Part shown: piece after piece, positions 42,773 to 47,959 of the stretch | Position numbering within the stretch: position 1 is the first letter of the stretch | How the letters are laid out: each line of letters begins with the position of its first letter | Source: Daphnia carinata | Lineage: Eukaryota; Arthropoda; Branchiopoda; Diplostraca; Daphniidae | Assembly: GCF_022539665.2 (NCBI RefSeq) | Contig: NC_081338.1 | Location: 6,002,446 to 6,066,445 of the forward strand | DNA: 64,000 nucleotides | Direction: 5' to 3' | The notes under the pieces: model-generated | The model's database searches: none | Seen by the model: the letters and a program-made list of their open reading frames with translations, nothing else | Told to the model about the DNA's origin: nothing | Program-made: the position numbers and the translations under genes

Positions 42773-43203
42773 ATGCCCCATTTGAAGATCACTACAAATG
42801 TTTCAAAAAGCTCAATTCCAAGTAATTTTTTGAAAGAGACTTCCTCGTTAATTTCTAAAATGCTTGGCAAGCCGGAAAGTGTAAGTAACTAACGGTGACA
42901 AAATTTAAAGTTATGGAGTAGAGCAGATAATTGCTGTTTTTATTGCTGTAGTATTGTGTCGTGACAGTTGTTCCCGACCAAATGATGATGTGGGGAGGAG
43001 AAGAAGGTCCATGTGCAATTGCCCATCTCATGAGTATTGGAAAACTTGGACTACAGGAAAACAAAAATTACTCTAAACTGCTGGGTGACCACATTGAGAA
43101 GCATTTAGGTGTAGCTCCTAATCACATGTACATTGAATATCAAGATATCAAAACAGCTGACCTCGGATATGATAATACTACTTTCCATGATATCCTTGGC
43201 TGA
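42773..43203 (+). CDS. MIF: Macrophage migration inhibitory factor (MIF)-family tautomerase
   Basis: Two exons, 42773-42880 and 42952-43203; 119 residues (human MIF 115). It starts MPHLKITTNV, so the catalytic Pro is exposed once Met is removed. Lys33 (Lys32 of the mature protein) is present in GKPES, then VVPDQMMMWGG, GPCAI and the C-terminal strand ADLGYDN. The family catalyses keto-enol tautomerisation and acts as a secreted cytokine without signal peptide, often in innate immunity. The single intron is phase 0, directly after the KPES codons, and the same intron recurs in both MIF-like parts of the next gene. It is the only full, ordinary MIF copy in the cluster. Confidence 0.95.
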
Positions 43204-43703: not shown

Positions 43704-45049
43704 ATGGCTGAGCATAGTGAAAATGATGATAGCCTCTCTAAAGAGGCTATCAATGAACCTCCAAGAAAAAAAGGAAGGAAAAGCAGGGAAAAAGTGTCAT
43801 GGGTCTGGCAGTATTTTATACAAGAAGGAAATGTTGCTGTGTGTCAGTTTTGCGAAGCTTCTTTATCAATAGCCAGCACTACTACTTTAAAGTACCATCT
43901 AAATCATCTACACAAGGATTTGATAGTTGAAGGAGAACCAAATGTAAATGAATCAAAACCTAAGATACAGGTTACATCAATTCCAAGGTAACATAGGTGG
44001 ATCCCTTGTCTATGAACTTCTCTAAATAACTATGTTTGTAATTTTTTTTACCAGTCAATCACCCCTAAAGAATAATGAAAATGTGACAGCGAACCCAACT
44101 TTTCAAAAAAACTTTTTTAAAGAGACTTCAGCTTTTATATCTAAGATGCTGGGAAAACCCTCAAACGTGAGTTACAACCTAAAGTGTTTTTTTTTTTTAC
44201 AGCTTGCAAGTAAATAATGTTATGTTGACTTTGATTTAGATCCGTATCGTGCACGTAATAGAAGACGAAGAGACTATTAACATTGAGAATCGACGTAAAG
44301 ATAGCCCCAAAAAAGAATTTGTTGGCGCAGTACCGCCAAGAAATAAAGCAAAGAAGCACAGAGAAAAGGTATCATGGGTGTGGCAGTATTTTCGAAAAGA
44401 GGAATCCATGGCCATTTGCCAATTTTGTCAAGCCTCTTTATCATCGGCCAGTACGACTACACTTAGCTACCACCTGAATCACCTTCACAAGGATTCCATA
44501 ACACATGCAACGGTGACTACAGAATCAAGTCGTTCTCAACCAGAAATCGTGCAGCCTGAAACAGAAATATTACTGGTCCCAGAAATCTCTAGGTTATTTA
44601 AATATTACCATTTTAAAAAATGCGTCGAGTTACTCCAACTTGGTTAAATAACAGTATGCCACATCTAAAAATTACCACGAATGTTACGAAGAATGGTATT
44701 CCAGATGATTTTCTGAGCGAAACCTCGGTGCTAGTTTCCAGAATGCTGGACAAACCCGAAAACGTGAGTAGCTATGTAAATATGTTTCTTTCGTAGAAGG
44801 AAAATAACTACATAATACTTAACGTTTTTACTACAGACCTCCATAGTGACGGTTGTTCCAGACCGGATTATGATGTGGGGAGGAGAAAATGGACCTTGTG
44901 CTATTATCCGCCTAAGAGGAGTAGGAAAGCTTGGGGAGGATGACAACACCAACTTAAGGATCCAATTAGGTGAACACCTTGAAAAACACTTGGGTATACC
45001 TCCCAGTCGAATGTTAATCCACAATGATACAAGAACTGCTTATTTCTGA
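43704..45049 (+). CDS. BED zinc finger - MIF fusion protein with two BED/MIF units
   Basis: Five exons: 43704-43987, 44055-44166, 44240-44592, 44655-44763, 44837-45049; 356 residues, all junctions in frame. Residues 28-71 form a BED finger (WVWQYF, Cys47-x2-Cys50, His65-x4-His70). Residues 104-142 are a partial MIF: NVTANPTFQKNFFKETSAF, then ISKMLGKPSN, a phase-0 intron and IRIVHVIEDE. Residues 170-216 form a second BED finger (Cys192, Cys195, His210, His215). Residues 251-356 form a nearly complete MIF, MPHLKITTNV through VVPDRIMMWGG to TAYF. Both MIF parts keep the intron position of the neighbouring MIF gene. BED fingers bind DNA and are typical of hAT transposases and ZBED proteins. The catalytic Pro is internal here and the C-terminus is about 10 residues short, so tautomerase activity is doubtful for the full product. 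The alternative is two adjacent genes misjoined, but the second BED exon carries the MIF strand itself. Confidence 0.85.
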
Positions 45050-45256: not shown

Positions 45257-46898
45257 TTAATCGGCAACACTTTCAAATATTTTGGCAATTTCTAAAGCCG
45301 TTTGGTTCAACCCAACGCTTTGCAGATTTGCAATCATAGAAACTACAATACCTCGAATAGGTTTATCTCCCGGCGTGTCATCAGTACGTGGCAGGACGAG
45401 CAAAACGGAACTAGCTCCAATGGCGCCGCCAGTATGTGAAATGTAGAATTGCCTCGATTTGCAGAAGGGGTAGTTGTTGTGCGACGATATAACGCCCCAA
45501 CCCATTCCATATTGGCCATCTCTATCCCACGCTAAAGATGTATTGGATACTGGTGACCATAGCATTTGGACGGTATCGCGATTTAGGAAGCCGTTGGAAT
45601 TTTGATATGAATAGAGCATGGCATTTCCGAATTTGACCAAATCATCGCTCGTAGATAGAAATCCGCCTCCCGCCCACTTGTATGAATTGTCAACATTTGT
45701 TGCGTTTTCCAATCGCCCTTTCTCGTTCCTAACGTAATATCTATTTGTAGAAAAGTGTGCGGTTATATATAGAAACGGGGTTTATAACTGAAGAGAGTTC
45801 ATTACTTTGCACGGTTGTAGATAATCGGTTTATTCTCGTCCAAATATGTGTTTCTTAACCCCATTTCATGAAAGAATACTTTCATGTATGAAGGGAAAGA
45901 CTTCTTCACGACACTTTCGACCACGGCACTCACTAGGGTCCACCCATGCGTTGTGTACAGAAACTTTACACCTTTACAGTAATTATTACCAGAATATTAT
46001 TAGAATAACAATAAAAGAAGTATTATTACCTGGTTTACTAAAAAGATCGTCATCTTTGAAAAGGGCTAGAGATTTTGATACACTCTCAAAATGGCTGTTG
46101 AGAAGGTACTCTTGATTTTCAAATTCATTATTGTTTTTTGTTTGGGTGTTGGAAATTTTTTCGTTCTGGGGATTTAGATCAACGGTAGTGGACGATACAT
46201 TACTGGGGGCAGGTACTTTTTCATAATGGCGAATACCAGAGAGATGACTGACTAAATGTCTCAATGTAATCTCTGCCTATGAAATAGAGAAAATCATGTA
46301 AGTATAGCAAGCTAAGCAGAGATACTTTAACATTTGACACCTTTTCACCATCAACAAATTTCTCTGGGAAATCAGCTACATATTCTTGAACTGGTTTATC
46401 AAGGGAGAGGCCTCCTTCCTGCCATAATCTAAACAAAGCACAGTTAAAGATATGTCTGGGTAGATGAATATTATCTTACTTGGCAACTACAGCCATGGTC
46501 ATTGACTTGCTAATGCTAGCAATTCGCATTACAGTATTTGTCTGGCAGAGAATATGGTTCTCGACATCAGCATACCCAAATCCTATTGCAAAACAAATTA
46601 CATGATCAATTATAAATGTTTGAGGTAGTACAATATTCACATTCACTGAACCTTTCTGGTAAACTGGAAGTCCATCAACACTCACACTAATAACTAGTCC
46701 AGGAGTTCCAGATTCATTCTTCACCTGCTCACACAACTTATCAGTAGCTTGAATAGCTTTGCTCCATGTAATCTTTTTTGGTTTGGTCGGGCTCTCAATT
46801 TCAATTTGTTTGCTGCTATCTAAGTATATTGTAGTTCCACATGCTGAGGCGGCCAAGGTAGCAGTAACCAATGAAACTTTCAAAATCCGCCTCGCCAT
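45257..46898 (-). CDS. LACTB: Serine beta-lactamase-like protein LACTB
   Basis: Exons in transcript order: 46898-46652, 46582-46480, 46428-46341, 46276-46030, 45971-45806, 45740-45257; 444 residues (human 547). The N-terminus MARRILKVSL plus a hydrophobic stretch fits a mitochondrial import and membrane segment. The penicillin-binding-protein fold motifs are present: SISK with nucleophile Ser105, YTTHGW in place of Y-x-N, and HTGGAIG near the end. LACTB forms filaments in the mitochondrial intermembrane space and affects lipid metabolism. A low-complexity Asn/Glu-rich insert (46080-46180) interrupts the fold, as in other animal LACTB proteins. Stop is 208 bp from that of the BED-MIF gene, tail to tail. 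Confidence 0.95.
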
Positions 46899-47959
46899 TT
46901 TCGTTCTCTTAAGACATTAAATGAATCTATTCAATCCAGGTGTACAAAAGAATAATCAATGTAGCTATTTAAACTTTGGTATCGTATAGCTGTTGTCAAG
47001 GGGAATGATTAACAAAGACAACAATGACGTCTCAAATCTTTCAAAAAATTGTAAACATCCTAAAACGTCATCTACCAAAGTAAAGTGTAACTATGGCAAT
47101 CCCTTATTAGTTTGTTTTAGAGCATTAACTACGAATCTAACCGTTAGATGACCACAAAGGAATAAAGAGAAACACTATTTTTTTTGGGAGGGGGCACTAT
47201 GGTACGATGGCATCTGCGCTGTAGCGTACTAACGCGCTAGCGTTGCATCAAATACTCGGTGTATTTCAAAAACGATTAACTTAATGAGAAAATTAGTAAT
47301 TTTCCCGCAATCAGCATTAATTTTGAGTATATCCTGTGATATACAACCAATTTTGATAAGTGCCGGTTTTTGCAGAAAATTTTTTTAAGCCCGACTCAAG
47401 TCGGGCATTATGCTAGCGCCAGTACGCTACAGCGTTAGCGCGATGCAGCGGAAAAATTCTGGAAGTGTATGAAGAGAATTAATTAGAAATTTGACCGGAA
47501 GATGGCGATAGCAGTAAAACAGAAAAAAAAAAACGATTTTTTTTCTGGTAAAACGGGTTGCCAGGTATACTGCTTGCGCCGATAATTATGCTCAAAAACA
47601 AAACTTCCTTTTCTATTGCCAAATCAACCTCTCCAGAATCCGCATTCCAAAATAAAGCAATATTACAAATTAAATCGCTGTCTTTTTATTTACGTACTAT
47701 ATACCAACGACGAGTAAATATATGTTTTTGGGAGTTGCGCATAATTCAAATTCAAAAATCCGACGAAATAAACTTCGATGTGTGTTATCACCAGCAACAC
47801 TTCACCACTGTTGTATCAAATACTTGGCATCAGCTAACCCATTAACTTTACCACCTTGCGAAGCTAGGTACTAAAAAATTCTAAAAACCGATGATTCTTA
47901 AGCATATCAAAAACAACTTAATACACAACCAACTAACGTTTAAAACAGATCGTTTGGCG
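46899..47959. other. Gap between TBCEL and LACTB with an inverted-repeat element
   Basis: Two minus-strand genes are separated by 1.06 kb. It holds the LACTB promoter and the inverted-repeat element at 47214-47440. The 95-codon open frame at 47558-47845 has no family feature. Confidence 0.6.
47214..47440. mobile_element. Possible MITE with GC-rich inverted ends
   Basis: GCGCTGTAGCGTACTAAC (47216-47233) and the reverse complement of AGTACGCTACAGCG (47421-47434) pair, extended by GCGCTAGC on the inner side at both ends. Between them are a perfect palindrome GAAAATTA-G-TAATTTTC and a hairpin GCCCGACT-CA-AGTCGGGC (47389-47406). I could not define a target-site duplication, so the ends are approximate. 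Confidence 0.5.

Follow-up and report, generated by a model that had tools for sequence, protein, structure and literature searches.

How two BED-type zinc fingers and two MIF segments come to alternate in one open frame is the question raised by a locus in the Daphnia carinata genome, at positions 43704 to 45049 of the 64,000-nucleotide stretch of contig NC_081338.1 analyzed here (hereafter, the window). Our preferred answer, which we hold at a probability of roughly 0.55, is that a BED exon was spliced to a duplicate of a MIF gene and then internally duplicated, and that the product would most likely be a nuclear DNA-binding protein using its MIF fold for assembly or partner binding, not as a tautomerase.

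The coding region of this fusion gene lies on the forward (+) strand, from a start codon at 43704 to a stop at 45049. Its five exons (284, 112, 353, 109 and 213 nucleotides), separated by four introns of 67, 73, 62 and 73 nucleotides that all begin with GT and end with AG, join without an internal stop into a protein of 356 amino acids, with the domain order BED, half-MIF, BED, MIF. A preliminary description, made from the letters alone, had proposed this frame, its introns and this order, and had suggested a domain search of the translation; that search found zf-BED (PF02892) in two stretches of the joined protein (1.8e-17) and MIF (PF01187) at its end. Exon 1 (43704..43987) holds the start codon, a basic stretch, PPRKKGRK (43758..43781), which by eye resembles a nuclear localization signal (NLS) and is unchanged in both relatives described below, and BED finger 1 (Pfam match 43803..43916, 37.7 bits). 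Taken singly, each BED exon passes the zf-BED cut-off of 20.6 bits, exon 1 with 36.5 bits and the second with 38.0 bits, and the C-x2-C and H-x4-H ligands are present in the fingers. After intron 1 (43988..44054), exon 2 (44055..44166) is a diverged copy of MIF exon 1 that has lost the start methionine. Pfam does not call this half-MIF; it is recognized by its alignment to exon 1 of the neighboring MIF gene (NFFKETSAFISKMLGKPSN versus NFLKETSSLISKMLGKPES) and by intron 2 (44167..44239), which falls at the position of that gene's own intron. Exon 3 (44240..44592), delimited by its frame, the Pfam match and alignment, opens with a probable short remnant of MIF exon 2 and continues into the second BED-bearing stretch (BED finger 2, Pfam match 44378..44491, 39.6 bits). 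Beyond intron 3 (44593..44654), exon 4 (44655..44763) opens one base ahead of the MIF methionine codon and is, by frame and alignment, a complete MIF exon 1 retaining MPHLKITTN. Intron 4 (44764..44836) again sits at the shared MIF position, and exon 5 (44837..45049), a C-terminally shortened MIF exon 2, ends in ..TAYF and a stop, as in Daphnia galeata. This last MIF scores 75.3 bits against a cut-off of 22 (5.9e-21) over residues 252-348, covering positions 1-97 of the 114 in the profile. Three other families pass marginally, and only when the joined protein is searched: DUF7830 (29.6 versus 27.5 bits), zf-C2H2_12 (28.5 versus 27.3) and DUF2511 (21.1 versus 21). A scan for bacterial-type promoters gave 11 sites versus 8.1 (standard deviation 2.2) in shuffles, and was set aside as inapplicable to an animal gene.

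Among 5.77 billion proteins, two of 782 candidates passed an E-value of 0.001, each of them containing the two Pfam families in the same domain order. A profile search, which sees only fusions of 0.55-1.75 times the query length, returned the same two from 3691 candidates and added no others. The first relative, P0001 (313 amino acids, 12 members, source tag lgn), is 92% identical to the fusion, and its protein is continuous over the intron 1 junction and the three that follow. Its contig is 1183 nucleotides long, and by arithmetic 942 coding nucleotides plus the window's 275 intron nucleotides would need 1217. The contig thus has no room for introns as long as these, so that P0001 supports all four junctions, and we infer that it derives from RNA. 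The second relative, P0002, is a D. galeata protein filed as 'L-dopachrome isomerase' (UniRef A0A8J2R9U2). It is 65% identical over 99% of the query (73% within the alignment) and has the same domain order and C-terminal end, so the same architecture, which the preliminary description had proposed seeking in related crustaceans, is present in at least this one. Because the homologues share the order, a chance open frame and a pair of separate genes were both dropped as explanations, and the locus looks like a conserved, real fusion gene. Given that D. galeata has the arrangement, it should be older than the split between the two species.

To trace the MIF parts, we turn to the gene immediately upstream, likewise on the + strand, an ordinary two-exon MIF gene (42773..43203, +; exons 42773-42880 and 42952-43203) encoding 119 amino acids with a MIF score of 108.9 bits and 89% identity to a protein labeled Daphnia pulex. 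It is the likely parent of the fusion's MIF parts: the three copies of MIF exon 1 in the window all end at an intron after the same codon. The opening of exon 3, IRIVHVIED (44240..44266), aligns without gaps over nine residues to the start of MIF exon 2, TSIVTVVPD, with 22 of 20000 shuffles equal or better, and the rest of exon 3 resembles exon 1, aligned from DSLSKEAINE / DSPKKEFVGA onward. In the simplest history, whose order of events we infer from these alignments, a hAT-type BED exon would have been spliced onto a duplicate of the neighboring MIF gene, one base ahead of the MIF start codon, and a later in-frame internal duplication would have run from the BED exon to just within MIF exon 2. 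The probable exon-2 remnant, together with such a duplication, would explain the alternating domain order; the preliminary description had noticed neither. Simple pairwise estimates between the two BED copies (54 codons) give a synonymous divergence (dS) of 2.18, itself near saturation, a nonsynonymous divergence (dN) of 0.17 and a dN/dS of about 0.08, so that their differences are mostly silent. Silent sites are saturated in the MIF comparisons, for which ratios are incomputable; dN is 0.27 between the last and the ordinary MIF (97 codons), and the half-MIF (19 codons) differs from the ordinary MIF by a dN of 0.15 and from the last MIF by one of 0.32. The MIF matches listed in the genome number at least four: two in the neighboring gene, one in the fusion and one on another contig. 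This fourth match (L003, from position 1326 of contig C7) belongs to another diverged MIF or D-DT-like gene, apparently with introns.

The BED fingers point to a different source. At least 13 zf-BED matches are listed in the genome, two of them in the fusion gene (genome counts of PF02892 and of the hAT dimerization family, PF05699, are lower bounds). Nine of the 11 others, which occupy 8 places, have a hAT dimerization match no more than 2.3 kb away, and the remaining two lie 13 kb and 2.3 Mb from one. The fingers are thereby supported as hAT-like in nature, as had been claimed, and a hAT element would be their presumed donor. The fusion gene itself has no hAT dimerization match nearby: the nearest among at least 46 is 2.2 Mb away, and Pfam finds none in the 356-residue protein, nor is any transposase part among the families listed for it; transposase parts beyond hAT dimerization were not searched for in the surroundings. 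Of the proposal that a MIF gene captured a transposon's BED finger, the recipient side fits, with an intact MIF gene adjoining and a common intron position, and the donor side found no counterpart. Elsewhere in the genome, one hAT-linked locus (L013 and L014, G000:C4:2135538-2136150) carries a pair of BED fingers separated by about 370 bases; BED is thus doubled in a transposon-like gene of this genome as well.

What might the product do? Members of the MIF/tautomerase family have a free N-terminal proline, Pro-1, once the methionine is removed, and MIF assembles as a trimer. The Met-Pro of the last MIF stands at residues 251-252 of the fusion, so Pro-1 is internal; leucine occupies position 95 in place of Tyr-95, and the C terminus is short, ending in ..TAYF with the tail gone (positions we assign by presumed correspondence to human MIF numbering). 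The neighboring MIF keeps a tyrosine at the site that we take to be human Tyr-95. These three departures of the last MIF make it unlikely, judging from sequence, to act as a tautomerase. The last MIF part of P0002 still models as a MIF fold (a fold comparison of the MIF part only, all structure models being of single chains). MIF has nuclear roles. Two BED fingers following basic stretches would bind DNA in the nucleus, and the C-terminal MIF fold would be retained for assembly or partner binding, perhaps joining an ordinary MIF trimer; nuclear location, DNA binding and MIF-MIF assembly of the fusion protein are all predictions from its domains and motifs. The preliminary description had envisaged a chromatin-targeted MIF. 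Chromatin targeting stays a proposal, and the sequence favors a MIF fold that lacks the family's usual enzyme site over a working cytokine at chromatin. A more speculative and rather doubtful extension is that a transposon-derived DNA-binding module made a MIF cytokine paralogue into a dedicated nuclear regulator in Daphnia, whose assembly with ordinary MIF would let the level or state of MIF be read directly on DNA.

Several observations weigh against this account of origin and role, including one given below with the alternative it favors. No hAT donor element was found, the closest other BED stretch among the genome matches listed (1.4 kb from a hAT dimerization match) being only 40% identical. 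BED finger 2 modeled alone has low confidence (mean pLDDT 44), the BED part of P0002 also models poorly, and solved structures yield a single BED match, itself weak (E 0.24). The exon-2 remnant aligns weakly when local alignment is left free: 178 of 2000 shuffles score as well. The tail of human MIF helps its assembly, and its loss may weaken trimers. P0001 breaks off within the last MIF, its final residues (..CAIIRLE) lying 61 positions along the MIF profile; the copy may be damaged, or its assembly wrong. Finally, 24 residues of BED finger 2 are absent from P0002; because the matching 72 nucleotides of the window are in frame, open with GT and close with AG, this gap is probably an annotation error in the form of a false intron.

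Among the alternatives, the fingers might serve in transposon control, recognizing the ends of related hAT elements while the protein represses or competes with transposase and the MIF part multimerizes it. The genome does contain BED frames of this Pfam family that are linked to hAT, but the low identity of the best other BED listed there speaks against this role, and we consider it unlikely. Equally hard to favor is a decaying or barely functional fusion that is transcribed without a role. The early end of P0001 would suit decay, as would the fusion's 65-73% identity to D. galeata when set beside the 89% of the neighboring MIF to D. pulex (different species pairs); the low dN/dS of the BED copies, the frame that stays open here and the C-terminal stop common to D. 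galeata argue the other way. Less probable again is that, beside the fusion, a free MIF-like protein is made from the last MIF's own Met-Pro. MPHLKITTN is unchanged in all three fusions, the first MIF piece has no methionine there, and such invariance would also be expected if selection maintained a free MIF start; yet the preceding intron of 62 nucleotides leaves scant room for a promoter, and Tyr-95 and the tail are lost. That separate BED and MIF genes were merely joined on paper is very improbable even with a gene model known here from genomic DNA and protein records, since P0001 spans every junction on its short contig and the domain order recurs in D. galeata.

In this gene, one lineage has physically united a MIF fold with fingers of the DNA-binding type. 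Since gene editing works in Daphnia, whose immune system is under study, the idea that a MIF fold can act at chromatin becomes testable there. In the public database the D. galeata protein carries no name beyond that of an isomerase, which its own sequence speaks against. Downstream of the fusion gene and convergent with it, open frames at 45257-46916 (-) resemble, by eye, exons of a beta-lactamase-like serine hydrolase (LACTB-like).

Although the fusion sequences are already in public databases, no description of the architecture turned up in the literature searched (MIF with BED, MIF with Daphnia, and Daphnia with BED finger, subscription papers being mostly outside its scope), in agreement with the preliminary description's view that BED joined to MIF is undescribed. 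Host capture of transposon DNA-binding domains is already known; MIF as the partner was not met in that literature. The fusion resembles the MIF/D-dopachrome tautomerase family (PF01187) in its Pfam match, in the MIF fold modeled for the D. galeata relative and in the intron position of the neighboring MIF, but described MIFs are single-domain (PMC7565538), whereas the fusion has an internal Pro-1, lacks Tyr-95 and the tail, and carries BED. Multidomain MIFs occur mainly in fungi and Alveolata according to a survey that targeted typical single-domain MIFs (PMC6826473), in whose main text the word 'Daphnia' is absent; the same source relates that human MIF has a reported nuclease activity whose motif other species' MIFs lack. 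Three MIF genes have been counted in D. pulex (PMC4169804), and the BED family is expanded in crustaceans (PMC5702152). A membrane-anchored MIF of Lingulodinium likewise has its MIF domain within a larger protein, but it is a dinoflagellate transmembrane protein, and the available part of its description mentions no zinc finger (PMC7565538). With hAT transposases the fusion shares BED fingers of a Pfam family whose other listed matches are hAT-linked in 9 of 11 cases; unlike them it has no hAT dimerization match, either in the protein or within 2.2 Mb among the at least 46 matches. ZBED and other transposon-derived factors also retain a BED finger for host use, but ZBED genes, found across animals, bear transposase and hAT parts, apart from two truncated Octopus genes without intact ones (PMC10027918), while the fusion's partner is MIF. 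Plant BED-NLR immune receptors similarly join BED to an immune-type protein; their BEDs resemble those of single-BED and transposase-type proteins, and an NLS is reported (PMC7761493). Partner, kingdom and architecture are unrelated, and the plant BED-NLR and the Daphnia BED-MIF appear to have arisen independently.
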